Virus record (IMG/VR): IMGVR_UViG_3300012211_000008
Coordinates: 1 to 29,718 of that record
DNA from: a virus
Reading direction: 5' to 3' (one strand)
DNA: 29,718 nt
The notes beneath the pieces were generated by a model. The model did no database searches and was not told the origin of the DNA. It saw nothing but the letters and a program-made list of their open reading frames with translations. Positions 1 through 19,492 of the stretch are shown here, piece by piece; position 1 is the stretch's first letter; each line of letters starts with the position of its first letter. The position numbers and the translations under genes are program-made.

Positions 1-30
1 ATTTTCAGTAAAAGAACAGTAAGAAGTTTA

Positions 31-104
31 CCTGCTTTGATGTATCGGTCGCATCCTCGCCTGAAGAGCGAGTCGAGCTAGTTCGATTCTAGCAGGCAGG
101 ACCA
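31..104 (+). tRNA. tRNA-Phe (GAA)
   Basis: A full cloverleaf is visible: acceptor 31-37/94-100, anticodon stem 56-60/68-72 with loop CTGAAGA, and T-arm 77-93 with a TTCGATT loop. The discriminator is A and CCA is encoded. It is the first complete tRNA in the window. Confidence 0.95.
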
Positions 105-110
105 AGTTTT

Positions 111-198
111 GCGTCTGTGGATGGAATTGGCAGACACGTCGCTCTCAAAAAGCGATGCCCTAAACGGCGTGGGAGTTCGAGTCTCCCCGGACGCACCA
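111..198 (+). tRNA. tRNA-Leu (CAA)
   Basis: This is a type II tRNA with acceptor 111-117/188-194, anticodon loop CTCAAAA (144-150), a long variable arm after 155, discriminator A and encoded CCA. It follows tRNA-Phe by 6 nt. Confidence 0.95.
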
Positions 199-206
199 AG
201 ATTGAA

Positions 207-301
207 ATCGTGAGCACAGCGGAAGCGTCAACTTCTCGGGTGCTTGTTCATTTACAGCGTTGACGCGCTCATGTGAATAAGGGTTCGATTCCCTCACGGA
301 T
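207..301 (+). other. tRNA-like structured element ISR-a (degenerate)
   Basis: The 3' end carries a T-arm-like hairpin (GGG/CCC around a TTCGATT loop, about 282-293). It is followed by six bases that pair with 208-213, as in an acceptor stem. There is no CCA, and the centre is a perfect 8-bp stem 225-232/259-266 instead of D and anticodon arms. The next tRNA begins after an AGATTT linker. It could be a decayed tRNA or a tRNA-mimicking RNA; I see no protein gene in 199-310. Confidence 0.4.
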
Positions 302-310
302 ATTAGATTT

Positions 311-402
311 AGTCTCATAGCACAACGGCAGTGCAGCGGCCTTATACACCGTAAGCTCCGGATTGGAGCGTGATGTAGGTTCGAATCCTACTGAGACTAC
401 CA
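311..402 (+). tRNA. type II tRNA with UAU anticodon
   Basis: The cloverleaf is complete: acceptor AGTCTCA/TGAGACT, D-arm 320-334, T-arm 375-391, discriminator A and encoded CCA. The anticodon loop is CTTATAC (341-347), giving UAU, which would read the Ile codon AUA. The variable region (353-374) forms a 5-bp arm GCTCC/GGAGC, typical of Leu, Ser or bacterial Tyr tRNAs and not of Ile. The amino acid it carries is therefore uncertain. The last anticodon-stem pair (340/348) is a C-A mismatch. Confidence 0.85.
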
Positions 403-407
403 GTTTT

Positions 408-494
408 GTGGCTGTGATGGAATAGGCAGACAGCAATCACTTAAAACGATTGGCTCGAAAGAGCGTAGGGGTTCAAGTCCCTTCAGCCACACCA
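408..494 (+). tRNA. tRNA-Leu (TAA)
   Basis: Type II tRNA: acceptor 408-414/484-490, anticodon loop CTTAAAA giving UAA, long variable arm, TTCAAGT T-loop, discriminator A, encoded CCA. The last anticodon-stem pair (439/447) is A-C. Confidence 0.93.
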
Positions 495-500
495 AGTTTC

Positions 501-575
501 GCGCTTCAAGTGTTACGATAGCACAGCGGGCTCTTAACCCGTCGAGACTCAGTTTAATTCTGAGGAGGCGCACCA
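501..575 (+). tRNA. tRNA-Lys (CTT)
   Basis: Acceptor 501-507/565-571, anticodon loop CTCTTAA (531-537), T-stem CTCAG/CTGAG, discriminator A, encoded CCA. The T-loop is TTTAATT, so the usual C56 is replaced by U. Confidence 0.93.
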
Positions 576-584
576 AGTTTCGGG

Positions 585-645
585 TTCTCACTTCGTTGTT
601 CGGGTGAGGTAATTGGCGAACGGATACGTAGCCGATTCCTGAGAA
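585..645 (+). other. structured non-tRNA element ISR-b
   Basis: This segment lies between tRNA-Lys(CTT) and tRNA-Lys(TTT) and has no open reading frame of note. Six-base arms TTCTCA (585-590) and TGAGAA (640-645) enclose it. A competing 5-bp stem 587-591/604-608 and a second hairpin (612-617 with 631-636, one wobble) can also form. It is flanked by the same AGTTT linkers as the tRNAs. Confidence 0.3.
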
Positions 646-651
646 AGTTTT

Positions 652-727
652 GGACTGCTACGTCAAAGGCAAGACTACGCGCCTTTTAAGCGCTGGAATC
701 TCCGTTCGAGTCGGAGGCGGTCCACCA
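652..727 (+). tRNA. tRNA-Lys (TTT)
   Basis: Acceptor GGACTGC/GCGGTCC, anticodon loop CTTTTAA (683-689), T-arm 700-716 with TTCGAGT, discriminator A, encoded CCA. Confidence 0.94.
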
Positions 728-731
728 AATT

Positions 732-822
732 TCCCATCGGTGTGAGAACGCACCGTTCGCTTTCAAGGCAGAAGCGGCGTCATTCCGTTCGACTCGGATT
801 CGCGGCGAAGTTCACGATGGGA
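732..822 (+). other. cloverleaf-like structured element ISR-c
   Basis: A perfect 8-bp closing stem (732-739/815-822) encloses a D-arm-like hairpin near 740-753, a 6-bp hairpin with a 7-nt loop (758-763/771-776, loop CAAGGCA) and a T-arm-like hairpin TCCG/CGGA around TTCGACT (784-798). A fourth small hairpin TTCG/CGAA follows. There is no CCA, and the 7-nt loop lacks U33. It resembles a tRNA that has gained an extra arm, but it is not a working tRNA by sequence. It is flanked by linkers like those of the tRNAs. Confidence 0.45.
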
Positions 823-832
823 TTAAGTTTCA

Positions 833-927
833 TGGGAATACAGTTCGGAATTACATCGAACAGTCGTCGGGAAGACTAGTCAGTACCGCCGAAAGGACGG
901 GGCGAGAAACCCCGGGTTCCCAGACCA
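833..927 (+). other. tRNA-like structured element ISR-d ending in ACCA
   Basis: Six outer pairs TGGGAA/TTCCCA (833-838/917-922) enclose a 5-bp hairpin GTTCG/CGAAC, a hairpin AGTC/GACT with loop GTCGGGAA, a GAAA-tetraloop hairpin (886-900) and a 5-bp arm CGGGG/CCCCG with 7-nt loop CGAGAAA (898-914). The element ends GACCA. The general plan is tRNA-like, but the T-loop consensus is missing. A 12-nt stretch (879-890) is identical to part of the T-arm of tRNA-Glu(CTC). Confidence 0.4.
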
Positions 928-929
928 TT

Positions 930-1067
930 ATGTATATTGATTACGAAAGTTTTTCTGCTGAATCTCTCGCCGAGGATCGGGAAAAGATGTGGCAAGATAT
1001 TGTAGATGAACTTTATGAAAAGTTAAACGGAGAGGTTGGGGCAACAGGTCGCCCTACTCGGCTGTAA
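930..1067 (+). CDS. small acidic protein inside the tRNA array
   Basis: A 45-residue ORF starts MYIDYESFSAESLAED and is rich in Asp and Glu, with a likely amphipathic helix. It begins 2 nt after element ISR-d. Its last third runs into tRNA-Tyr, with the stop codon lying in the anticodon loop of that tRNA. No clear ribosome binding site is seen. Product unknown; the overlap with a tRNA makes it uncertain. Confidence 0.35.
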   Translation: MYIDYESFSAESLAEDREKMWQDIVDELYEKLNGEVGATGRPTRL

Positions 1068-1117
1068 CCCGAGAGTCCCTTGGGACGTTATAGGTTCGAA
1101 TCCTATTCTCTCCACCA
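1029..1117 (+). tRNA. tRNA-Tyr (GTA)
   Basis: Type II tRNA: acceptor GGAGAGG/TCTCTCC, anticodon stem CTCGG/CCGAG with loop CTGTAAC, variable arm GTCCC/GGGAC, TTCGAAT T-loop, discriminator A, encoded CCA. The long variable arm is usual for bacterial tRNA-Tyr. Confidence 0.95.
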
Positions 1118-1118
1118 T

Positions 1119-1192
1119 ATTCGACTCGTTCAACGGTAGGACCCGCGTCCGATTAACGCGGTATCAAGGTTCGAATCCTTGGTCGAATACCA
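1119..1192 (+). tRNA. tRNA with GAU anticodon and C33 (Ile-like)
   Basis: Perfect acceptor ATTCGAC/GTCGAAT, T-stem CAAGG/CCTTG with TTCGAAT, discriminator A and encoded CCA. The anticodon stem CGCGT/ACGCG encloses CCGATTA, so position 33 is C rather than the near-universal U. The anticodon reads GAU (Ile) with U at position 37. Isoacceptor assignment rests only on the position-based reading. Confidence 0.8.
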
Positions 1193-1195
1193 ATT

Positions 1196-1324
1196 ATGAC
1201 GTACGAAGAAAAAGCAGAAGCATTGAATAAACATGCTGACTCGTGTCCGCAATGTAACCTATCACGGAAGTGTAGTGATACTCGCGGATGCTGTGAAGAA
1301 GGTAAAAAGATTTTGGGCTGTTAG
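1196..1324 (+). CDS. small Cys-rich protein
   Basis: A 42-residue ORF begins MTYEEKAEALNKHADSC. It carries CPQC, a single Cys and a CC pair, ending GC, which resembles a small zinc-binding knuckle. It starts 3 nt after the preceding tRNA and its stop lies inside the D-region of tRNA-Ala. No strong ribosome binding site is visible. Function unknown. Confidence 0.4.
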   Translation: MTYEEKAEALNKHADSCPQCNLSRKCSDTRGCCEEGKKILGC

Positions 1325-1388
1325 TTAAGTGGGATAACGGTTGCCTTGCACGCATCAGTCGGGAGTTCGACTCTCCCACGGTCCACCA
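1315..1388 (+). tRNA. tRNA-Ala (TGC)
   Basis: Acceptor GGGCTGT/ACGGTCC (two wobbles), anticodon loop CTTGCAC, T-stem GGGAG/CTCCC with TTCGACT, discriminator A, encoded CCA. Its 5' end overlaps the end of the small Cys-rich ORF by 10 nt. Confidence 0.93.
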
Positions 1389-1396
1389 ATTTCAAT

Positions 1397-1471
1397 ATGC
1401 TGCTGGCAGATCGGCAGATGCACTCGGTTTACACCCGAGACAGCGGGGTTCAACTCCTCGGCGGCATACCA
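1397..1471 (+). tRNA. tRNA-Val (TAC)
   Basis: Acceptor ATGCTGC/GCGGCAT, anticodon stem CTCGG/CCGAG with loop TTTACAC, TTCAACT T-loop, discriminator A, encoded CCA. Confidence 0.94.
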
Positions 1472-1480
1472 GTTTAATGA

Positions 1481-1545
1481 TCGTCTTGCTGTAGACCGGA
1501 AATAAGCAGCCTCCGTTTCGGGAGTAGCGCAAACTCCTCCATATT
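1481..1545 (+). other. structured non-tRNA spacer ISR-e
   Basis: Two alternative hairpins share one strand. CTCC/GGAG encloses GTTTCG, and GGAGT/ACTCC encloses the 7-nt loop AGCGCAA. No acceptor stem or open reading frame is apparent in 1472-1547. Confidence 0.25.
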
Positions 1546-1547
1546 TT

Positions 1548-1623
1548 GGGCTTGTCATCTAACAGGACAAGGTTCAGGTCTACGAAACCTGCAATTACGG
1601 TTCGAGTCCGTACAGGCCCACCA
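1548..1623 (+). tRNA. tRNA-Arg (ACG)
   Basis: Acceptor GGGCTTG/CAGGCCC, anticodon stem CAGGT/ACCTG with loop CTACGAA, TTCGAGT T-loop, discriminator A, encoded CCA. An A34 Arg tRNA normally depends on A-to-I editing by host TadA. Confidence 0.95.
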
Positions 1624-1628
1624 AGTTC

Positions 1629-1703
1629 GGACTGTTCGTTCAATGGATAGGACACCGCGCTTCGAACGCGGCTATAGGGGTTCGAATCCTCTACGGTCTA
1701 CCA
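1629..1703 (+). tRNA. tRNA-Arg (TCG)
   Basis: Acceptor GGACTGT/ACGGTCT, anticodon stem CCGCG/CGCGG with loop CTTCGAA, TTCGAAT T-loop, discriminator A, encoded CCA. Confidence 0.94.
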
Positions 1704-1733
1704 AGTTTATGTAGTGCGATGCGTTGGCCCTAA

Positions 1734-1853
1734 GTGCGGTTGACAGGGGCATCTGGCCCAGATTATTACGCCTGACGAAGCGAAAGCAGAAACTCGAAAG
1801 AGTCGCGTGGAGTCCTCCCATCTGGGAAATAAATGAGGACCTAAAGACCGCAC
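1734..1853 (+). ncRNA. structured RNA element ISR-f with alternative pairings
   Basis: A perfect 7-bp closing stem (1734-1740/1847-1853) encloses a multibranch segment. It contains a GGGC/GCCC hairpin (1747-1759), hairpins GC-GAAA-GC and CTC-GAAA-GAG, and a 6-bp stem GTCCTC/GAGGAC (1812-1817/1835-1840). The strand CCCAGAT (1757-1763) can pair perfectly either locally or with ATCTGGG (1820-1826). A 72-codon frame runs through here and into tRNA-Asn, but it looks accidental. I recognise no Rfam family; an RNA role is inferred from structure alone. Confidence 0.5.
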
Positions 1854-1862
1854 AAATTTTAT

Positions 1863-1937
1863 TGGTGGTTCGTCTAATGGTAAGACGCTCGGCTGTTAAC
1901 CGTGAAGATGAAGGTTCGAATCCTTTGCCACCAGCCA
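1863..1937 (+). tRNA. tRNA-Asn (GTT)
   Basis: Acceptor TGGTGGT/GCCACCA, anticodon loop CTGTTAA (1893-1899), TTCGAAT T-loop, discriminator G as expected for Asn, encoded CCA. Confidence 0.95.
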
Positions 1938-1942
1938 TTTAA

Positions 1943-2016
1943 GCCGAATTAGTATAGTGGTAGTACGTCGAGCTTGTACCTCGAAAGTGAGCGTCCGATT
2001 CGTTCATTCGGCTCCA
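1943..2016 (+). tRNA. tRNA-Thr (TGT)
   Basis: Acceptor GCCGAAT/ATTCGGC, anticodon stem TCGAG/CTCGA with loop CTTGTAC, discriminator T, encoded CCA. The T-loop is TCCGATT, so position 55 is C instead of U. Confidence 0.93.
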
Positions 2017-2024
2017 GTCTCTCA

Positions 2025-2160
2025 GTTGTGCGGATAGTATCGTGCGATAGTTGGCCGAAGTGATGTGAGAGCATCCTCGGATACATCCCTCACGCTGGCT
2101 ACCATCCAATGACGGTAGGCACCGTTGCTTTCGAGTAACGAGTAACGCCAGTCGCACAAC
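2025..2160 (+). ncRNA. structured RNA element ISR-g with a probable pseudoknot
   Basis: A perfect 8-bp stem GTTGTGCG/CGCACAAC (2025-2032/2153-2160) closes a 136-nt segment with no useful ORF. Inside is a hairpin made of CCGA/TCGG and GATG/CATC whose loop TGAGAG is complementary to CCCTCA about 25 nt downstream, an H-type pseudoknot arrangement. A further hairpin CGTTGC/GTAACG (one wobble) lies near the 3' side. It begins right after tRNA-Thr and ends before the linker of the next tRNA. Confidence 0.5.
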
Positions 2161-2170
2161 AAAGATTTTT

Positions 2171-2244
2171 GCACTTATGATCTAATGGTATGATGCCGCT
2201 TTCGTAAAGCGGACGTGGTGGTCCGATTCCATCTAGGTGCTCCA
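2171..2244 (+). tRNA. tRNA-Thr (CGT)
   Basis: Acceptor GCACTTA/TAGGTGC, anticodon stem CCGCT/AGCGG with loop TTCGTAA, discriminator T, encoded CCA. T-loop is TCCGATT (C55). Confidence 0.93.
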
Positions 2245-2257
2245 GTTTAGGAGTAAG

Positions 2258-2419
2258 ATGATTGACAAGATTATTTTTGGATTACAAGCAGGAAGCTTCT
2301 CTTTGATGCTGGTCCTGTTAATCTTTTTCAAAGCGTCTTACGGTTTGATGATTTCGACTTTTGGTTTGCATGCTCTTGCTGATACATTGTTCGTACTACG
2401 CAGTAAAGGAGTACTATGA
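2258..2419 (+). CDS. small membrane protein A
   Basis: This 53-residue protein starts MIDKIIFGLQAGSFSLML. It is mostly hydrophobic, with one or two membrane segments (roughly residues 5-25 and 29-46) and a basic C-terminus. The start is chosen at 2258 because TAGGAG lies a few bases upstream; an in-frame ATG at 2237 falls inside tRNA-Thr. Its stop overlaps the start of the next gene by 4 nt (ATGA), so the two are translationally coupled. A holin-like or superinfection role is conceivable but not shown. Confidence 0.65.
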   Translation: MIDKIIFGLQAGSFSLMLVLLIFFKASYGLMISTFGLHALADTLFVLRSKGVL

Positions 2420-2604
2420 ACCTATCAACGATTCTGAGTTCTGTAGACAAGTACATTAAGATCAAGTCCTGGCTTCAGTTTGTTGGTTACATGTTAGCGT
2501 TCGGCGGATTGGTATTCATCGAACACCCGCTCGCAAAGATAGTAGCGTACGTCGGTTTAGGCGTCAGCATGGCAGGATTTTTGTACGACATGATTTATCC
2601 TTAA
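2416..2604 (+). CDS. small membrane protein B
   Basis: This 62-residue protein starts MNLSTILSSVDKYIKIKS and has two predicted membrane segments (about residues 20-37 and 42-58). It is preceded by AAAGGAG and overlaps the previous membrane protein by 4 nt, so the pair is probably made together. Two coupled tiny membrane proteins recall holin/antiholin or immunity pairs, but no family is recognised. Confidence 0.65.
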   Translation: MNLSTILSSVDKYIKIKSWLQFVGYMLAFGGLVFIEHPLAKIVAYVGLGVSMAGFLYDMIYP

Positions 2605-2611
2605 GAGTTTC

Positions 2612-2671
2612 GCGGTCGCAGTGGCTATTCCGGCGCTGTGCTAAGTGGGAAGTCCGATGCCTTCTAACCGC
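2612..2671 (+). other. structured non-tRNA spacer ISR-h
   Basis: Arms GCGGT/ACCGC (2612-2616/2667-2671) enclose a 5-bp hairpin CAGTG/CGCTG (one wobble, 2619-2623/2634-2638). There is also a T-arm-like hairpin whose loop begins TCCGATG, like the C55 T-loops of neighbouring tRNAs. CCAGTA follows directly. It may be a decayed tRNA. Confidence 0.3.
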
Positions 2672-2679
2672 CAGTATTC

Positions 2680-2753
2680 GCTTCGATGGTTCAATGGTAG
2701 AACGGGTCCTTGGTAAGGATCAGACTACAGTCCGATTCTGTATCGAAGCTCCA
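2680..2753 (+). tRNA. tRNA-Thr (GGT)
   Basis: Perfect acceptor GCTTCGA/TCGAAGC, anticodon stem GGTCC/GGATC with loop TTGGTAA, discriminator T, encoded CCA. T-loop TCCGATT (C55). It is the third Thr tRNA of the array. Confidence 0.93.
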
Positions 2754-2758
2754 GTAAC

Positions 2759-2851
2759 TTGTCCGAAAGGGCATAGGAAGTTTTAAACAGTTAGACGCGC
2801 AAGCGGACCTTACAGTCGAAAGACGGGACGGACCCTTAGTAAGGAACTTCC
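2759..2851 (+). ncRNA. structured RNA element ISR-i with GNRA hairpins
   Basis: The 7-bp stem GGAAGTT/AACTTCC (2776-2782/2845-2851) stacks directly on the 6-bp stem CCTTAC/GTAAGG (2808-2813/2839-2844). GNRA tetraloop hairpins lie at 2760-2773 (GAAA), 2794-2806 (CGC-GCAA-GCG) and 2815-2824 (GTC-GAAA-GAC). No coding potential is seen. The ordered stacking and tetraloops argue for a folded RNA; family unknown. Confidence 0.5.
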
Positions 2852-2865
2852 GAGCATTTAGTTTT

Positions 2866-2940
2866 GGTGCTAGGGTCAGTTGGTAACGACGAGCCCCTGT
2901 CACGGGTTAAGTCCGGGTCCGATTCCCGGTAGCACCGCCA
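2866..2940 (+). tRNA. tRNA-Asp (GTC)
   Basis: Acceptor GGTGCTA/TAGCACC, anticodon loop CTGTCAC (2897-2903), discriminator G as expected for Asp, encoded CCA. T-loop TCCGATT (C55). Confidence 0.94.
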
Positions 2941-2953
2941 GTTTAGGAGACTT

Positions 2954-3034
2954 ATGATTATAGGAATTCTCATAGGTGTCATAGCATTAGTTGTGTTCTT
3001 GTACATGATAAAAGGTATGGGATACAAAGAGTAA
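2954..3034 (+). CDS. 26-residue single-pass membrane peptide
   Basis: The ORF begins MIIGILIGVIALVVF and is almost wholly a single hydrophobic helix, ending with a short charged tail. TAGGAG stands at 2944-2949, a good spacing for the ATG. It sits between tRNA-Asp and tRNA-Glu. Function unknown; the ribosome binding site is the main support. Confidence 0.55.
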   Translation: MIIGILIGVIALVVFLYMIKGMGYKE

Positions 3035-3038
3035 TTAC

Positions 3039-3112
3039 GGCCCTGTCGTCTAAAGGCAGGACATTTGCTTCTCAAGCAAGCGACGGCGGGTCAGTACCGC
3101 CCAGGGCCTCCA
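3039..3112 (+). tRNA. tRNA-Glu (CTC), atypical T-loop
   Basis: Perfect acceptor GGCCCTG/CAGGGCC, anticodon loop TTCTCAA (3069-3075), T-stem GGCGG/CCGCC, discriminator T, encoded CCA. The T-loop is GTCAGTA, which departs from the TTCRA consensus. Confidence 0.9.
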
Positions 3113-3151
3113 ATTTAAATTTCATATCAATTGACCGGAGGGTCTAAGTAT

Positions 3152-3574
3152 ATGAGTAGTTCAGATAACGATAGGAACAGACGCAGGAGTGACTTCTTAG
3201 GTGTGTCGTTTAGTACGGCCACATTTAAATTAAGAAAGAAAATTTTATTCCATCTTCTTAAAAAGCACCAAGAAGATGTTTGCTCTCAGTGCGGTAAAAA
3301 GATTGAGACGATAGAAGAATTGAGTATTGAGCATTTAAAGCCGTGGGAAGGAATTTCTGTTGACCTGTTTTGGGATATCGAAAACATAGCGTTTTCTCAT
3401 ATTCGTTGTAATGTACCGCATAAATACAATAACGGTCAATTAAAGCCCAGGCCCGACGGAGCAGACTGGTGCGGCCCAGGGCAGCATTTCGCTCCCGTTG
3501 AAGATTTTTACAAGAGCAAATGGTATCATACAGGAAGGCAGAAGTGGTGTAAAATTCACCGTCCTGCTAGATAA
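3152..3574 (+). CDS. HNH endonuclease (tRNA-array copy)
   Basis: This 140-residue protein is probably a free-standing HNH nuclease. A CSQC pair starts a zinc-stabilised HNH module at about residues 44-47. It is followed by an EH-L-P segment (the metal-binding His region) and an ENIAFSHIRCN stretch that supplies the Asn/His and a closing Cys. Further Cys residues lie near the C-terminus (DWCGP, KWCKIH). I start at 3152 because GGAGGG lies about 10 nt upstream; an in-frame TTG at 3131 precedes that site. It is an isolated protein gene among tRNAs, consistent with a mobile homing-type gene. Its target is unknown. Confidence 0.8.
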   Translation: MSSSDNDRNRRRSDFLGVSFSTATFKLRKKILFHLLKKHQEDVCSQCGKKIETIEELSIEHLKPWEGISVDLFWDIENIAFSHIRCNVPHKYNNGQLKPRPDGADWCGPGQHFAPVEDFYKSKWYHTGRQKWCKIHRPAR

Positions 3575-3582
3575 TTTTGAGT

Positions 3583-3668
3583 TTGCACGTTACTGTTTTG
3601 GCTTCAGCATGCGTTGAGAGTCAAGGCGTCAACTGAGACCGTCTACCGCATGTAGAACGGGAGTGCAA
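3583..3668 (+). ncRNA. structured RNA element ISR-j with a pseudoknot
   Basis: Outer arms TTGCAC/GTGCAA (3583-3588/3663-3668) enclose an 8-bp hairpin (3639-3646 with 3652-3660, one bulged A). Its 5-nt loop CGCAT (3647-3651) is perfectly complementary to ATGCG at 3609-3613, which gives a compact pseudoknot. It lies between the HNH gene and tRNA-Glu(TTC). No matching family is recognised. Confidence 0.5.
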
Positions 3669-3675
3669 TTAATAT

Positions 3676-3750
3676 GGCGATATCGTCCAGTGGCTAGGAC
3701 GGGTGACTTTCAATCACCAAACCAGGGTCCGATTCCCTGTATCGCTACCA
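3676..3750 (+). tRNA. tRNA-Glu (TTC)
   Basis: Acceptor GGCGATA/TATCGCT, anticodon stem GGTGA/TCACC with loop CTTTCAA, discriminator A, encoded CCA. T-loop TCCGATT (C55). Confidence 0.94.
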
Positions 3751-3760
3751 ATATGTTTCA

Positions 3761-3786
3761 CTATACGGACACATGTGTCTTTATAG
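3761..3786 (+). other. hairpin between tRNAs
   Basis: CTATA/TATAG arms enclose a perfect 12-nt palindrome GACACATGTGTC (3768-3779). It has no T tract and may be a processing or protein-binding site. Confidence 0.3.
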
Positions 3787-3799
3787 CGAGATAAGTAAT

Positions 3800-3884
3800 G
3801 CGCTAGTGGTGGAACGGCAGACACGCCAGTCTTAGAAACTGGTTCTGAAAACGAGTGGGGGTTCAAATCCCTCCTGGCGCACCA
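3800..3884 (+). tRNA. tRNA-Leu (TAG)
   Basis: Type II tRNA: acceptor GCGCTAG/CTGGCGC, anticodon stem CCAGT/ACTGG with loop CTTAGAA, variable arm, TTCAAAT T-loop, discriminator A, encoded CCA. Confidence 0.95.
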
Positions 3885-3893
3885 AATTTCTGT

Positions 3894-3968
3894 TGCGGTG
3901 TATAGTTCTGGTGAACTTCGAGGTCTCATAAGCCTTGCAGGAAAGTTCGATTCTTTTCGCCGCTACCA
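3894..3968 (+). tRNA. tRNA-Met (CAT), unpaired 1:72
   Basis: The acceptor pairs at positions 2-7 but 1:72 is a T-T mismatch, a feature otherwise typical of initiator tRNAs. Anticodon loop CTCATAA, TTCGATT T-loop, discriminator A, encoded CCA. The anticodon stem (GAGGT/GCCTT) lacks the three G-C pairs of initiators. It could be initiator, elongator or a lysidine-modified Ile tRNA. Confidence 0.88.
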
Positions 3969-3973
3969 ATTTA

Positions 3974-4051
3974 CGCTGAGAGGTCCACCGGAAAGTGGAC
4001 GGCGGTCTCATAAACCGTAACAGGTTGGTTCGACTCCAACTTCAGCGACCA
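3974..4051 (+). tRNA. tRNA-Met (CAT), second copy
   Basis: Acceptor CGCTGAG/TTCAGCG with a paired 1:72, D-stem GTCC/GGAC, anticodon loop CTCATAA, TTCGACT T-loop, discriminator A, encoded CCA. Elongator Met or a CAU-type Ile tRNA; the sequence alone does not decide. Confidence 0.9.
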
Positions 4052-4057
4052 ATTCGA

Positions 4058-4131
4058 GCGGCTGTGGTTCAGTGGTAGAATTCGTCCTTGCCAAGGATGA
4101 GATACGGGTCCGATTCCCGTCAGCCGCTCCA
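4058..4131 (+). tRNA. tRNA-Gly (GCC)
   Basis: Perfect acceptor GCGGCTG/CAGCCGC, anticodon loop TTGCCAA, discriminator T, encoded CCA. T-loop TCCGATT (C55). Confidence 0.94.
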
Positions 4132-4147
4132 AGTTCACGCGCCTGTC

Positions 4148-4208
4148 AAGGCATTGGGGTCGCCCCAGAATACTGACCTTCCGACTAGTAAGCCCGCGAG
4201 GGGACTAG
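4148..4208 (+). other. structured non-tRNA element ISR-k
   Basis: Hairpin TGGGG-TCG-CCCCA (4155-4167) sits inside AAGG/CCTT. A second hairpin CTAG/CTAG encloses CCC-GCGA-GGG (4193-4202), a GNRA tetraloop. No tRNA features. Confidence 0.35.
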
Positions 4209-4218
4209 CAAAAATTTT

Positions 4219-4317
4219 ATGAGCAAAGAAAAAGAATGTTTAGATTGTAAAGTTCCAGTACGTGAGTCCTCAGAAGGACTTCGAAACGAAGACGGAACTT
4301 TTCATATCTGTAAATAA
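4219..4317 (+). CDS. 32-residue Cys-containing peptide
   Basis: The ORF starts MSKEKECLDCKVPVRES and ends HICK. The CLDC pair plus a terminal H-I-C suggest a small zinc knuckle. A weak purine-rich site lies about 17 nt upstream, so translation is uncertain. It sits just before tRNA-Gly(TCC). Confidence 0.4.
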   Translation: MSKEKECLDCKVPVRESSEGLRNEDGTFHICK

Positions 4318-4322
4318 GTTTT

Positions 4323-4396
4323 GCGGGTGTGGTATATAGGTTGTGCCCTGGCCTTCCAAGTCAGAGAAACGAGTCCGAGTCTCGTCACCCGCTCCA
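4323..4396 (+). tRNA. tRNA-Gly (TCC)
   Basis: Perfect acceptor GCGGGTG/CACCCGC, anticodon loop CTTCCAA, discriminator T, encoded CCA. T-loop TCCGAGT (C55). Confidence 0.94.
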
Positions 4397-4401
4397 AGTT
4401 T

Positions 4402-4475
4402 AGGCTGTTAGGACAATGGTAGTCTACTCGCCTCCAAATCGAGTGATGGGAGTTCAATTCTCTCACGGCCTGCCA
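4402..4475 (+). tRNA. tRNA-Trp (CCA)
   Basis: Acceptor AGGCTGT/ACGGCCT, anticodon loop CTCCAAA (4432-4438), TTCAATT T-loop, discriminator G as expected for Trp, encoded CCA. Confidence 0.94.
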
Positions 4476-4485
4476 AATTTGCAAA

Positions 4486-4564
4486 CGCTGCTGGTCAGCG
4501 GTGTTAGCGGGGTTAGCGCCCCGATGACCTATTTCGGTAACTTCCGAGCGCCTTATGCCGGGCG
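4486..4564 (+). other. structured non-tRNA element ISR-l
   Basis: Three hairpins stand in a row: CGCTG-CTGGT-CAGCG (4486-4500), CGGGG-TTAGCG-CCCCG (4508-4523) and CGCC/GGCG (4549-4564). The 3' part up to 4590 has TGGCTTG/CAAGGCT-type complementarity. No tRNA or ORF is apparent in 4476-4596. Confidence 0.35.
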
Positions 4565-4596
4565 AGATGGCTTGAAACCCAAGGCTATAATTTTAT

Positions 4597-4672
4597 GGTC
4601 CCGTGGTCTAACGGAAAAGGCAACAGCCTTCTAAGCTGAAAGATGAGTGTTCGATTCACTCCGGGACTACCA
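4597..4672 (+). tRNA. tRNA-Arg (TCT)
   Basis: Acceptor GGTCCCG/CGGGACT, anticodon loop CTTCTAA, TTCGATT T-loop, discriminator A, encoded CCA. Confidence 0.94.
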
Positions 4673-4677
4673 GTTTT

Positions 4678-4753
4678 GGTTCTGTAGCTCAAACGGAAAG
4701 AGCATCTGCCTCCTAAGCGGGAGATGACGATTCGAGTTCGTCCAGGACCACCA
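4678..4753 (+). tRNA. tRNA-Arg (CCT)
   Basis: Acceptor GGTTCTG/CAGGACC, anticodon loop CTCCTAA, TTCGAGT T-loop, discriminator A, encoded CCA. It is the fourth Arg tRNA; the set reads CGN (ACG, TCG) and AGR (TCT, CCT) codons. Confidence 0.94.
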
Positions 4754-4756
4754 GTT

Positions 4757-5063
4757 TTATTTTGGTAAGCCAGACTGTCGCGGGAAACCGAGGAACTTCT
4801 GGACATCACTAGACAGAGAGCCGTGGAAGTTGCGGGCCGAGTAATCGGACGGGTAAGGCTTCGTATGTAAGCGAGCGCTGACATTGCAAAATGTCATCGA
4901 GCGCTGACATCATTCAAGCGAAGGCACTCCACTCTCGATGCAATCTCAAATAGGGCTGGAGCGCGTCTAGCGTTATGATAGCCGGGTTGAGAGCAAAGAC
5001 GGATGACAGTCAGGTTGACACCTAACAGTGGCGACCGACAGAATCCAGGGTATCGGCTAACCA
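4757..5063 (+). ncRNA. long structured non-tRNA segment ISR-m
   Basis: This is the longest gap between tRNAs (about 320 nt), with no plausible ORF. The first half has CGG-GAAA-CCG (4781-4790), a 6-bp stem AACTTC/GAAGTT (4794-4799/4826-4831) and CCGA-GTAA-TCGG (4837-4848). The second half has a perfect 7-bp hairpin closed by a GCAA loop (4879-4896), arms TCTCAA/TTGAGA and AGGT-TGAC-ACCT. Three of the loops are GNRA. It may be two or more RNAs; no family is recognised. Confidence 0.45.
4872..4910 (+). repeat. 13-bp direct repeat around a GNRA hairpin
   Basis: CGAGCGCTGACAT occurs at 4872-4884 and again at 4898-4910. The strand between them folds back on the first copy (TGACATT-GCAA-AATGTCA), so the second copy can compete for the same pairing strand. 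Confidence 0.7.
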
Positions 5064-5072
5064 AAGCATTAC

Positions 5073-5159
5073 GGAGAAGTGGCGAAATGGTAGACGCAAC
5101 GGTTTGCTAAACCGTCGTACCGAAAGGACGTGGGAGTTCAAGTCTCTCCTTCTCCGCCA
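5073..5159 (+). tRNA. tRNA-Ser (GCT)
   Basis: Type II tRNA: perfect acceptor GGAGAAG/CTTCTCC, anticodon stem ACGGT/ACCGT with loop TTGCTAA, variable arm, TTCAAGT T-loop, discriminator G as expected for Ser, encoded CCA. Confidence 0.95.
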
Positions 5160-5166
5160 ATTTAAT

Positions 5167-5257
5167 GGAGCGCAGTCGGCAATGGTGCCCCACTGTCTTG
5201 AAAACAGTACTATCCCTTATAAAGGATAACGGAGTTCGATTCTCTGGCGCTCCTCCA
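5167..5257 (+). tRNA. tRNA-Ser (TGA)
   Basis: Type II tRNA: perfect acceptor GGAGCGC/GCGCTCC, anticodon stem ACTGT/ACAGT with loop CTTGAAA, long variable arm TATCC/GGATA, TTCGATT T-loop. The discriminator is T rather than the usual G of Ser tRNAs; CCA is encoded. Confidence 0.93.
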
Positions 5258-5263
5258 TTTAAT

Positions 5264-5340
5264 GTCTCAGATGCTGAAGCGGTCGAAGCGGAAGTCTGCA
5301 AAACTTCTCTTAGTCAGTTCGAGTCTGACCTGGGACTCCA
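5264..5340 (+). tRNA. tRNA-Cys (GCA)
   Basis: Acceptor GTCTCAG/CTGGGAC, anticodon stem GAAGT/ACTTC with loop CTGCAAA, TTCGAGT T-loop, discriminator T as expected for Cys, encoded CCA. Confidence 0.95.
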
Positions 5341-5347
5341 ATTTTAT

Positions 5348-5422
5348 TGGCTTGTCGTCTAATCGGTAGGACGAAGGACTTTGAATCCTTCTATCCAGGT
5401 TCGAGTCCTGGTGAGCCAACCA
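5348..5422 (+). tRNA. tRNA-Gln (TTG)
   Basis: Acceptor TGGCTTG/TGAGCCA, anticodon loop CTTTGAA, TTCGAGT T-loop, discriminator A, encoded CCA. Confidence 0.94.
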
Positions 5423-5429
5423 TTTCAAT

Positions 5430-5504
5430 TGCCCGATCATCTAATTGGTAGGATAGCGGACTCTGAATCCGCGCATCTAGGTTCGAGTCCTAGTTGGGCA
5501 GCCA
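5430..5504 (+). tRNA. tRNA-Gln (CTG)
   Basis: Acceptor TGCCCGA/TTGGGCA, anticodon stem GCGGA/TCCGC with loop CTCTGAA, TTCGAGT T-loop, discriminator G, encoded CCA. Confidence 0.94.
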
Positions 5505-5514
5505 ATTTAGCAAC

Positions 5515-5551
5515 ACACTGAACAGAGGCTTCGCTAATCCCGAAACAGTGT
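5515..5551 (+). other. hairpin between tRNA-Gln and the protease gene
   Basis: Perfect arms ACACTG (5515-5520) and CAGTGT (5546-5551) enclose a 25-nt loop. It may separate tRNA processing from the protease message. Confidence 0.3.
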
Positions 5552-5596
5552 ACATCCTTGTAAGTGCTCTGCCAAGTATCAAGGATGAGGTGCAAG

Positions 5597-6352
5597 ATGA
5601 GAAAATTTCTTGCGTTGTTCACATTAGCTACTTTACTTGTCCTGGGCGGTCTTCTTGTAAAGCCCTGGAATTCATACGAGCCCGAAGCACGACTCGCATC
5701 TGGTGCGATGTTTTCAGGCAGCGACCGTAGTTTTCACTGTTCTGGCACTGAGATCGGCGCTACAGCAGACGGCGGTGGGATATTCCTGACCGCACGTCAC
5801 TGTGTAGCCGACCCACAGACAAATAAGCTTAACGAGCACTTCGCCGTCTCATTCACAGATAACCAGGGTGGTCCGTTTTATGACGCCACGCCTATTGCGC
5901 TATCTTTGAGCGACGACCTGGCTCTGCTCTACGTAAAGAATGGCGCTGGTATTCCACAGGTCCGAATTAAGGACGAGCGCAGTCTCCGTAGTGGCGACCC
6001 GATATTCAACGTCTCGTTCCCATTGGGCACGGGCAAGGAACTGTTCCACGGCGAGTACATGCGTGCGAGCTTCCCGACGTTCCCTAGTATCATAGCAAGT
6101 TATCCGCAGTGGCTGTACGCTATGCCGATGAACATGACTATCGCGCACGGTTCAAGCGGAAGCGGCGTGTTCAGTAATAAGCAGCGTGCTCTTATTGGAG
6201 TTGCCGTAGGAACCTTCGAAGAGGGAACTTACAATATCGCAATTCCAGCAGACCGTGTCCTGGACTTTCTAAACGATTTGAAAGACAACACGGTGGAGAA
6301 GTTTAAGTATGCTTTTCCAGAAAAAGAACCTAACGAATTCATGATGTTTTAA
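5597..6352 (+). CDS. membrane-anchored V8/trypsin-like serine protease
   Basis: This 251-residue protein has a short basic N-terminus and a hydrophobic stretch (about residues 4-21), a signal peptide or membrane anchor. The body matches the trypsin/glutamyl-endopeptidase fold. The catalytic His is H68 in FLTARHC, the Asp is D106 or D107 in LSDDLALL, and the Ser is in HGSSGSGVFS (S187 by alignment with GNSGSP of V8 enzymes). All three are present, so activity is likely, outside the cytoplasm. Start 5597 follows GAGG by 5 nt; upstream in-frame ATGs exist. It lies between tRNA-Gln and tRNA-Pro. Substrate and role in infection are unknown. Confidence 0.85.
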   Translation: MRKFLALFTLATLLVLGGLLVKPWNSYEPEARLASGAMFSGSDRSFHCSGTEIGATADGGGIFLTARHCVADPQTNKLNEHFAVSFTDNQGGPFYDATPIALSLSDDLALLYVKNGAGIPQVRIKDERSLRSGDPIFNVSFPLGTGKELFHGEYMRASFPTFPSIIASYPQWLYAMPMNMTIAHGSSGSGVFSNKQRALIGVAVGTFEEGTYNIAIPADRVLDFLNDLKDNTVEKFKYAFPEKEPNEFMMF

Positions 6353-6358
6353 TTTTAT

Positions 6359-6447
6359 CGGGGTGTAGTTCCGTAATCTGGCAGCGGTCTCGCTTTGGAA
6401 GCGAGTGGTTAATACCCTTGGAGGTTCAATTCCTCTCACCCCGACCA
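6359..6447 (+). tRNA. tRNA-Pro (TGG), long variable region
   Basis: Perfect acceptor CGGGGTG/CACCCCG, anticodon stem CTCGC/GCGAG with loop TTTGGAA, TTCAATT T-loop, discriminator A, encoded CCA. The variable region (6406-6419) is 14 nt with a GGT/ACC mini-stem, longer than usual for Pro. Confidence 0.93.
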
Positions 6448-6494
6448 TTTTGTTCGAAGAAGTATAGTACTTGGAGTGTAGTATAGGAGCGCAA

Positions 6495-6779
6495 ATGAAC
6501 GTTATATCTATGGTAGCTAATCTTGTCAAAGAACGAGATTACTACAAAGAATCATTCATAGAGTGTCAAGCTATCATTAAACAGTTAGCTGAAGGTCCTG
6601 GCGATATCGAATACATTCATCCATTTGATATGTATGATATTCTTAACTCAACGGACGCTAGTGAATTCATCGATGTTTACACGGGTCCGAAGGATGAAAG
6701 AACTTTTACGTTAGGTAAATCTGGAAAGAAATACAAGCAATCTCAGTTCATTCCAGCAAAGTCGAAAAATTTTAAGTAA
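6495..6779 (+). CDS. hypothetical protein, 94 residues
   Basis: The protein begins MNVISMVANLVKERDYYKES. It has a helical, charged N-terminal half, an acidic middle and a Lys-rich tail. I start at 6495, preceded by TAGGAG, rather than at the earlier in-frame ATG (6471), which has no such site. The stop is 1 nt before tRNA-Pro(CGG), so message and tRNA must be on one transcript. No family recognised. Confidence 0.6.
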   Translation: MNVISMVANLVKERDYYKESFIECQAIIKQLAEGPGDIEYIHPFDMYDILNSTDASEFIDVYTGPKDERTFTLGKSGKKYKQSQFIPAKSKNFK

Positions 6780-6780
6780 T

Positions 6781-6859
6781 CGAGAAATAGAGGAGCCTGG
6801 CTTATCTCGCCCCGTTCGGAACGGGGAGCACGCTGGTCCGAATCCAGCTTTCTCGACCA
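6781..6859 (+). tRNA. tRNA-Pro (CGG)
   Basis: Perfect acceptor CGAGAAA/TTTCTCG, anticodon stem CCCCG/CGGGG with loop TTCGGAA, T-loop TCCGAAT (C55), discriminator A, encoded CCA. It is the last tRNA of the array. Confidence 0.94.
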
Positions 6860-6865
6860 TATTAT

Positions 6866-6891
6866 AGCCGCCTGATACTTGGGCGGCTTTT
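6866..6891 (+). terminator. intrinsic terminator closing the tRNA array
   Basis: Perfect 7-bp stem AGCCGCC (6866-6872)/GGCGGCT (6882-6888) followed by TTT. It stands directly after the last tRNA and before the lipoprotein gene. Confidence 0.88.
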
Positions 6892-6906
6892 GCATTTCAG
6901 GGGCAT

Positions 6907-7368
6907 ATGAAGGTATTCCCAATCCTACTATCGCTGCTACTGGGCTGTTCGCCTGTGCATCGTAAAATTTATGGCGGACCCCCGACCTACCCTAAGCATG
7001 CAAGTCCAGCCGCACAAGGTTTGATAATCGAAGTTTACGGCTCTGAGCGGTACCAGCAAGAGCGGGTCCGTCGCTTAGCAACACACCTGAACTTTACAGG
7101 ACAGCCGATGCCTGGTTGGTGGCGCATCGTAATCCTCAGTCGAGCAGACTGGGACGATGCCCTGATTAGATATCACCTCGAAGGCAGAACAGCAAGTGCC
7201 TTCACGGTAATGAATCAGGACGAAACGTTCGTTAGCGAAGAGTATCTGTTCTTTGCAACGGATGACCGAGTCCAGTTCACTCTAGGACACGAAGCAGGAC
7301 ATTTAATTTGTAGTTGTAGTTCAGAAGACCGAGCAAATCAAATTGCTAGGATTCTGACCAGGCGGTAA
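6907..7368 (+). CDS. putative HExxH metallopeptidase lipoprotein
   Basis: A 153-residue protein begins MKVFPILLSLLLGCSPVH. The basic start, hydrophobic run and LLGC lipobox (Cys14) predict a lipid-anchored envelope protein. Near the C-terminus GHEAGHLICSC carries the zinc-binding HExxH motif (128-132), with acidic residues at 140-141 that could provide the third ligand. The length suits a minimal metallopeptidase fold. It lies just after the tRNA terminator, with AGGGG upstream of the start, and leads into the virion genes. Roles in lysis or envelope modification are possible. An inactive spanin-like protein is the main alternative. Confidence 0.65.
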   Translation: MKVFPILLSLLLGCSPVHRKIYGGPPTYPKHASPAAQGLIIEVYGSERYQQERVRRLATHLNFTGQPMPGWWRIVILSRADWDDALIRYHLEGRTASAFTVMNQDETFVSEEYLFFATDDRVQFTLGHEAGHLICSCSSEDRANQIARILTRR

Positions 7369-7422
7369 AGCACGATTGGTTTGATTGAGCGGGGCCGACG
7401 TGTTCTTTAGTACAGGAGATTT

Positions 7423-18841: not shown

Positions 18842-19492
18842 ATGGCTGGCGAAAACCCAAACGAACAAGTAATCTGTTACGTTTCACGTCACGGTACTAC
18901 TGACTGGAATGCGAATTCCGGGAACGGTGGCGGAAGATACAGAGGTCAAAAAGATATCCCGCTAGACGCTCAGGGAAGAGAAGATGCGAAAGAGGCTGCT
19001 AGGTTTCTTGCTAATATAAAATTCGGTCAAGCCTGGTCTAGTGATTTAAGCCGTTCAAAAGATACAGCTAAAGAGATATTAAAAGGGAAAGGCATCAAGG
19101 TCATCCCGCTAGCATCCCTAAAACCATTGGATTCGGGTAAGTTTACAGGCATGCAGAAAGACGACGCCAAAGAGGACATGAAGTACTATCAGGAACATAC
19201 AGATGTTCGAATTCCTGGCGGAGAGTCTATCGACGGAATGCATAAGCGAGTTCGTCCTCCTGTATTCAAAGCATTCAGGGCAGGGCTAAGAACAGGAAAG
19301 CCTAGCCTTCTTGCTGTACACTCAAGCGTAATTCACAGTATAGGTCACTTGCTTCATGACGACCACACTGCCGCTCTAGTCGAGCCTGGTGGAGTCATCG
19401 AAGTTATATTTGACGGAAAGAAGTTTCACGCAAAGCCGATTTTCAAGGCTAAGAATGATAAGGGTACGGGGGAAGCGCACTACGCTTCTTAG
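18842..19492 (+). CDS. histidine phosphatase family protein
   Basis: A 216-residue protein of the phosphoglycerate-mutase-like superfamily. RHGTTDWN (catalytic H17) stands at the N-terminus, SSDLSRSKDTA supplies the second Arg, PGGESIDGMHKRV follows, and AVHSSVIHS carries the second catalytic His. The usual E in the LxE-xxG region reads LKPLDSG here. These enzymes form a phospho-His and remove phosphate from small molecules or proteins. It stands directly before the terminase. Substrate unknown. Confidence 0.85.
   Translation: MAGENPNEQVICYVSRHGTTDWNANSGNGGGRYRGQKDIPLDAQGREDAKEAARFLANIKFGQAWSSDLSRSKDTAKEILKGKGIKVIPLASLKPLDSGKFTGMQKDDAKEDMKYYQEHTDVRIPGGESIDGMHKRVRPPVFKAFRAGLRTGKPSLLAVHSSVIHSIGHLLHDDHTAALVEPGGVIEVIFDGKKFHAKPIFKAKNDKGTGEAHYAS

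Follow-up and report, generated by a model that had tools for sequence, protein, structure and literature searches.

What lies between the tRNA genes of a phage whose transfer RNA (tRNA) set is nearly complete? A 29,718-base virus fragment (IMG/VR record IMGVR_UViG_3300012211_000008; this whole stretch is hereafter the window) raises the question, since it carries terminase and portal genes and its left end, 31-6859, is occupied by a tRNA array. A preliminary description of this DNA had pointed out about 12 structured non-tRNA segments among the tRNA genes. The view that none of them matches anything known fails for the one listed there as 4757-5063: by homology, window positions 4762-5068 are a class A RNA of ribonuclease P (RNase P), which generates the mature 5' ends of tRNAs. 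The segment exceeds the gathering score of RF00010 (104.0 bits against 100; E 4.5e-31) and matches the model over its full length (1-367). The RNA, its parts and its immediate neighbours are arranged as follows.

31-6859, + strand: tRNA array with 34 tRNAs, the RNase P RNA, other RNAs and a few small open reading frames
4678-4753, + strand: tRNA-Arg (CCT), ending 8 nt upstream of the RNase P RNA
4762-5068, + strand: the catalytic RNA subunit of a class A RNase P (307 nt in the RF00010 match), inside the tRNA array
4790-4799, + strand: conserved region I, GAGGAACTTC, from the RF00010 alignment
4799-4803, + strand: 5' strand of the P4 helix, CTGGA, pairing with 5044-5048
4809-4814, + strand: 5' strand of the P6 pseudoknot, CTAGAC, pairing with 4965-4970
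4823-4833, + strand: GTGGAAGTTGC (P8 hairpin), a signature of the phage clade, found independently in the window and in the related records G004, G006 and G010
4954-4983, + strand: kink-turn-like P15/P17 (GGCTG-GA-GCGC ... GCGT-TAT-GA-TAGCC), from motif comparison
4965-4970, + strand: 3' strand of the P6 pseudoknot, GTCTAG, from covariation
5044-5048, + strand: 3' strand of the P4 helix, TCCAG, adjoining ACAGAA at 5038-5043 (conserved region V)
5073-5159, + strand: tRNA-Ser (GCT), beginning 4 nt downstream of the RNase P RNA

The alignment of the window RNA to RF00010 shows GAGGAA...UC, AAAUAGG, AGACGGAUG and ACAGAA. With the bacterial class A RNA (RF00010; rnpB or M1 RNA) it has in common the full-length match, the P4 and P6 pseudoknots and the motifs GAGGAA...UC, AAAUAGG, AGANGNAUG and ACAGAA. 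It differs from the bacterial RNA in its place within a tRNA array and in that no cognate protein gene was found, and further in lacking P18, in its GTGGAAGTTGC hairpin, in its kink-turn-like P15/P17 and in the CCA at the end of P1.

The RNA is shared by a group of phages. Among phages related to the window by terminase or array protease, G010 (81.7 bits) and G004 (72.7 bits) gave RF00010 matches, and a divergent copy in G006 was recognised from its position and motifs. From the copies of the window, G004, G006 and G010 we made the search pattern GAGGAAN{22,29}GTGGAAGTTGC, which matched 51 stretches when run on IMG/VR. An RF00010 match of 66-132 bits was obtained in 24 of the 48 new records, above the gathering score in seven, and all 24 carry tRNA arrays; the remaining pattern-matched records lack a tRNA array in the vicinity and were probably hit by chance. 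In a scan of GTDB with this pattern, none of the 80 matches listed has other RNase P motifs, and these too look fortuitous. Altogether, the RNase P RNA occurs in 28 virus records from a single phage group, on the strand of the tRNA array in 28 of 28. Most of these records hold 28-33 tRNAs by ARAGORN, and terminase and portal were each found in 25. Linkage to the tRNAs is tight: linkers of 2-9 nt separate the RNA from an adjoining tRNA in about half of the arrays, and in nine records it is flanked by Arg(CCT) and Ser(GCT). Records other than the four that gave the pattern were selected by GTGGAAGTTGC, so the conservation of this hairpin among them is not independent; apart from it and GAGGAA, no conserved feature of the RNA entered into the selection.

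Is the fold under selection in these phages? We aligned the 25 distinct sequences and scored them on the structure that RF00010 assigns to the window RNA, to which we added the P4 and P6 pseudoknots, which lie beyond the reach of the covariance model and were placed by inspecting the window. Over the 25 sequences, 81.6% of the cells of 83 pairs are paired, and in 62 of the pairs both partners have changed. Covariation scores 0.420, compared with 0.156 +/- 0.007 for shuffles and 0.06-0.10 for slid partners. P4, the helix of the catalytic core, is paired in 25/25 through 12 sequence combinations, with four of its five positions compensated, and P6 with L17, a feature of class A as against class B, is paired in 91.3% of cells and compensated at 6/6 positions. 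Given this compensatory change, that in P4 and P6 included, there is strong evidence that selection acts on the RNase P fold of the phage RNAs. At the level of single bases, GAGGAA and the TC that follows are invariant in the 25 sequences (GAGGAA is itself part of the search pattern), and the conserved ACAGAA and AGANGAAUG segments are present, with ACAAAA or ACTGAA, and GGATG for GAATG, in a few members. Single-base variants of ACAGAA occur in 3/25; P4, ACAGAA and the GANGNATG segment are retained throughout the clade.

These data also bear on whether the RNA is a passenger without function, that is, a bacterial rnpB captured by chance, host contamination or an assembly chimera. Such errors do occur: in the public record 'Microcystis phage MaAM05' (MW495066.1 109323-121473, L313) a similar, rnpB-like match has fliM, glyS and fabI as neighbours and is plainly bacterial, and we rejected it as a phage copy and regard the record as probably contaminated. 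For the window group, the passenger account is very improbable. The RNA is found in 28 records on separate contigs, in the same kind of array and with phage genes, its compensatory change is strong, and the Arg(CCT)/Ser(GCT) neighbours are common to nine records. In a tree of the RNase P RNA core, where long branches leave the deeper placements uncertain, the window clade is monophyletic (support 100) and lies apart from the sampled bacteria. We therefore rejected bacterial contamination as the source of the window-group RNA, on the strength of the phage genes in the 28 records and of the separate clade.

What would a phage do with such an RNA? We think it likely that the array is a tRNA-making cassette which includes the catalytic RNA needed to process it and which works with a host protein. 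Bacterial class A RNase P RNAs work with the protein RnpA. We found no RnpA (PF00825) in the 28 records, several of which span 91-119 kb and all of which are possibly incomplete, and bacterial controls were positive in this search. The array would be transcribed as a single polycistronic RNA with about 34 tRNAs and the RNase P RNA, and 4762-5068 would fold into an active class A ribozyme and recruit the RnpA of the host. In the infected cell it would then remove the 5' leaders from the phage tRNAs, presumably to the benefit of the phage when the host enzyme is limiting. The 3' end of the ribozyme could itself be set by an RNase P cut before the next tRNA, 4 nt downstream, followed by trimming back towards the conserved CCA at the end of P1. 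This CCA lies in the 3' strand of P1 in 23/25 sequences, as in the array tRNAs, nearly all of which encode it. Some of the other segments, with 199-310 as the best case, would be separate structured RNAs in the same cassette.

The phage RNAs differ from those of bacteria in the region between P15 and P17. A stem-GA-stem strand opposite a stem-NNN-GA-stem strand, by sequence a predicted kink-turn, was found there in 21/25 RNAs of the clade and in 0/9 bacterial and 0/5 other viral RNAs, by a relaxed search that allows a mismatch beside the tandem GA pairs and that was applied in the same form to the bacteria; a stricter search without such a mismatch gave 9/25. In E. coli, the GGU motif of L15 pairs with the CCA end of the tRNA. 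Several observations weigh against an array-processing ribozyme. The L15 GGU motif is not evident at P15/P17 of the phage RNAs, and because it is not, and because this region appears rebuilt as a kink-turn, substrate recognition may differ from that of E. coli. By the same simple test, roughly half of the bacterial RNAs scored also lack GGU, and its absence is therefore compatible with class A membership. P18 is absent and the P12-P14 region is shortened in the RF00010 alignment of the window RNA. Finally, blastn with the window RNA gave no match in a public phage collection, so that most phages with many tRNAs seem to manage with no RNase P RNA of their own.

The altered region can also be read as the mark of a decoy, in which the phage RNA binds the RNase P protein or the substrates of the host and delays the maturation of host tRNAs, with translation then relying on phage or pre-existing tRNAs. 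A phage that encodes the RNA, with no RnpA found, and whose CCA-recognition region is altered would fit a decoy. A pure decoy would have no need of the catalytic core, of which P4, ACAGAA and the GANGNATG segment are kept throughout, and the location within an array of about 34 tRNAs, which need RNase P, argues for use over blockade; we consider a decoy improbable. A different account keeps the RNA active and gives it another partner: a phage-encoded or other protein, for example one that binds kink-turns, or hardly any protein at all. Archaeal RNase P uses the kink-turn protein L7Ae, and this precedent, the motif in 21/25 RNAs and the lack of RnpA in the records would suit such a partner. No L7Ae-family protein was detected in the 28 records, many of them fragments, and partnership with RnpA is established for bacterial class A RNAs. 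We judge this account, too, to be unlikely, and retain an array-processing ribozyme with host RnpA as the preferred reading.

Phage genomes with dozens of tRNA genes have been described, both as tRNA arrays (PMC6409571) and in huge phages (PMC7162821). The window array differs from these sets in that it includes a processing ribozyme, and RNase P is not mentioned in the huge-phage paper (PMC7162821). The nearest published concept is that of the theta ribozymes of gut phages, structured RNAs beside tRNA genes for which a role in tRNA maturation has been proposed (PMC10879173). They are hepatitis delta virus (HDV)-like, self-cleave at the 3' end of the tRNA, and accompany tRNAs of which just 4.5% encode CCA (PMC10879173). 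In contrast, a phage RNase P would act in trans and at 5' ends, and the tRNAs of the window array do encode CCA. No HDV-like Rfam match was found in the array; the theta descriptor itself was not run.

RNase P RNAs of a different, bacterial type are found in other viral lineages. A bacterial-type 18-mer, GAGGAAAGTCCGGGCTCC, matched 15 IMG/VR stretches, and 14 of these records score 156-300 bits against RF00010; a stricter bacterial-type pattern, which would miss E. coli too, gave no matches. The RNA lies within a same-strand many-tRNA array in G087, G088, G089/G093, G091, G094, G097 and G098, a set unrelated to the window group. The record G094 (363 kb) has terminase and portal genes side by side and is, on this gene evidence, a jumbo phage with a bacterial-type RNase P RNA in its tRNA array. 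The phage status of G087, G091, G097 and G098 rests mainly on their IMG/VR class, and they could include plasmids; in small records such as G090, G092 and G099 bacterial contamination is possible. As hallmark tests for the large records, PF03237 and phrog_2 were negative or unspecific. In the core tree G091, G097 and G098 fall among the Actinobacteria (support 85). Because the window clade is separate from these, viruses have likely acquired RNase P RNA at least twice. An RNA-binding protein of phrog_850, which we take to be possibly of the Ro60 type, is encoded near the arrays of G097 (L306:13251-14969) and G088 (L308:223-1887), both of which have a bacterial-type RNase P RNA.

What, then, of the other segments between the tRNA genes? 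They are present at about the positions first given, on the tRNA strand, with short linkers such as AGTTTT or ATTTAAT. We compared minimum-energy folds of 12 non-tRNA segments, leaving out 4762-5068, with dinucleotide shuffles. The 12 contain seven GNRA tetraloops (mean of shuffles 0.53; 0/150 reach seven), which with the three in 4762-5068 agrees with the 'about ten' counted before. The closing stems claimed for the segments hold up for the set, with six of at least 6 bp against 2.7 expected (5/150 shuffles). The summed folding energy has z = -4.4. Segment by segment most are unexceptional, as z lies between +0.2 and -2.3, beside -0.7 +/- 1.3 for coding DNA of the window. Most segments fall within this coding-DNA spread, and homologues therefore weigh more than folding energy. 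Segments with homologues or similar stretches in related arrays are the following.

206-306, + strand: tRNA-like pseudoknot RNA with a closing stem, a T arm with loop TTCGATT, a 7-bp pseudoknot and an ATTA 3' end
861-930, + strand: structured RNA element, with an 80% identical stretch in the G055 array
1472-1511, + strand: 40-nt element after tRNA-Val, possibly an H-type pseudoknot (GTCT/AGAC, TGCT/AGCA), 100% identical in G004
2017-2161, + strand: structured RNA closed by GTTGTGCG/CGCACAAC, with a 95% identical copy in the G052 array; fold z -2.1
2754-2862, + strand: structured RNA with three GNRA hairpins and homologues in G004 and G006; fold z -2.3
4137-4222, + strand: structured RNA element, with a 79% identical stretch in the G027 array

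The best case, segment 199-310, has homologues in G004 and G056. Its structure consists of a closing stem, a 5-bp stem, the 7-bp pseudoknot, a further stem and a T arm; the 25 pairs are 100% paired in the three sequences, eight are compensated, and the covariation score is reached by 0/500 shuffles. The RNA resembles, as predicted, a tRNA with a pseudoknot in place of the D and anticodon arms, ending in ATTA and not in CCA. In joining a T arm, an acceptor-like stem and a pseudoknot it is like transfer-messenger RNA (tmRNA), from which it differs in having no ARAGORN or Rfam call, no CCA end, a length of about 100 nt and no identified tag frame. The other five segments of the list appear to be maintained elements, since homologues occur in related phage arrays; the element at 1472-1511, which follows tRNA-Val in G004 as well, has no significant folding energy when the pseudoknot is left out. 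Scanned for more widely, the 199-310 and 829-930 elements turned up in no additional records. For 585-645, 732-822, 1734-1853, 2610-2677, 3583-3668 and 4486-4564 no convincing homologue was found, and folding statistics are their sole support.

Alternatively, the segments other than the RNase P RNA could be tRNA genes in decay, or spacers with stems that do no more than keep the tRNAs apart. Folding is weak segment by segment, and 2610-2677 ends in CCGCCA and contains a T-arm-like stretch, as a degraded tRNA would. The excess of GNRA loops and of stability at the level of the set speaks against decay or spacing, as do the compensatory changes in 199-310 and in an array RNA of eight phages and the 95% conserved copy of 2017-2161 in G052, and we regard this explanation as somewhat unlikely. 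Covariation, the check suggested at the outset, was found in all three families examined: 4762-5068, 199-310 and the array RNA that is absent from the window.

GOLLD and ROOL are large structured RNAs near phage tRNAs; the window has no Rfam match to either, which bears out their earlier exclusion. For self-cleaving ribozymes and tmRNA, too, Rfam gave nothing up to E = 5 over window 1-7400, and weak matches (YrlA, plastid UTRs, mascRNA) were discarded, as they sit on tRNAs far below threshold. Of the suggestion that the segments are small RNAs, tRNA mimics or ribozymes, one ribozyme (that of RNase P, as opposed to a new self-cleaving one) and one tRNA-like RNA (199-310) thus stand. With homologues of the segments in some arrays and RNAs absent from the window in others, the arrays appear to carry a changing set of structured RNAs.

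Further RNAs and genes of such arrays were noted. A 49-nt spacer between tRNA-Glu and tRNA-Leu (3751-3799), unlisted in the preliminary description, forms a near-perfect hairpin (z -4.0) with no T run after it. Outside the window, a structured RNA of about 90 nt occurs in eight arrays (L103, L108, L109, L113, L122, L126, L017, L019; alignment A3), and 12 of its 22 predicted pairs show compensation. Clusters 4 and 9 (e.g. L107:8685-8842 and L017:12267-12459) are recurrent elements of these arrays, the first about 150 nt long and present in 10 genomes, the second about 180 nt long and present in 7; both are probably structured. ARAGORN-negative tRNA-like genes with the T loop GGCAGAG, not TTCRANY, occur at L103, L109, L119 and L120 (arrays of G012, G021, G050 and G051; cluster 16); several have the anticodon TGC, and they may be unusual tRNAs or mimics. 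The G006 array encodes a GGQ release-factor domain (L019:800-988; PF00472, E 5e-21, 132-aa frame), in 1/28 records, which probably serves ribosome rescue. Genes for tmRNA with the tag ANDNSYASAAIAA are present in the virus records L043:3355-3766, L059:501-912 and L067:4772-5182 and are unrelated to the RNase P finding.

In the window itself, ARAGORN identified 32 tRNAs and Rfam two more. The set covers all amino acids but His; in the relative G004 the His tRNA lies immediately upstream of Phe, so that an equivalent would fall past the edge of the window. The two additional tRNAs, together with the phage hallmark genes, are listed below.

501-575, + strand: tRNA-Lys (CTT), missed by ARAGORN (RF00005 46.7 bits; anticodon read from sequence), with similar genes in G004, G019 and G022
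3039-3112, + strand: tRNA-Glu (CTC), missed by ARAGORN (RF00005 48.0 bits; anticodon read from sequence)
19516-21867, + strand: large terminase (phrog_38 E 5e-37, Terminase_6C)
21877-23997, + strand: SU10-type portal protein (PF23899 E 1.4e-18)

Inside the array lie genes for an HNH endonuclease and a trypsin-like protease (3131-3574 and 5600-6352). A histidine-phosphatase family protein (18842-19492) adjoins the terminase, and a similar-looking frame stands beside the terminase of G004 (64127-64753).

RNase P RNA is usually regarded as the cell's own ribozyme, and we know of no virus shown to encode one. Our literature search, outside whose scope lay most subscription papers and bioRxiv preprints, returned no report of a phage RNase P RNA, and we make no claim of priority. 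On balance, and with reserve, we favour a wider view in which phages took bacterial RNase P RNA into their tRNA arrays more than once; one clade would have remodelled the ribozyme, with a kink-turn for the CCA-reading loop and the loss of P18, into a divergent RNase P for its own tRNAs, and the cassettes would hold further new RNA classes such as the tRNA-like pseudoknot RNA. A near-complete tRNA set with its processing ribozyme would shift the line between the parts of translation that a phage supplies and those that it borrows. With it one could also test directly whether the maturation of phage tRNAs has to be independent of the host, for example where the host enzyme is limiting or where defences attack tRNAs. 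The rebuilt P15/P17 would be a natural experiment in tRNA recognition by RNase P, and the remaining conserved RNAs of the arrays are candidates for new RNA families.

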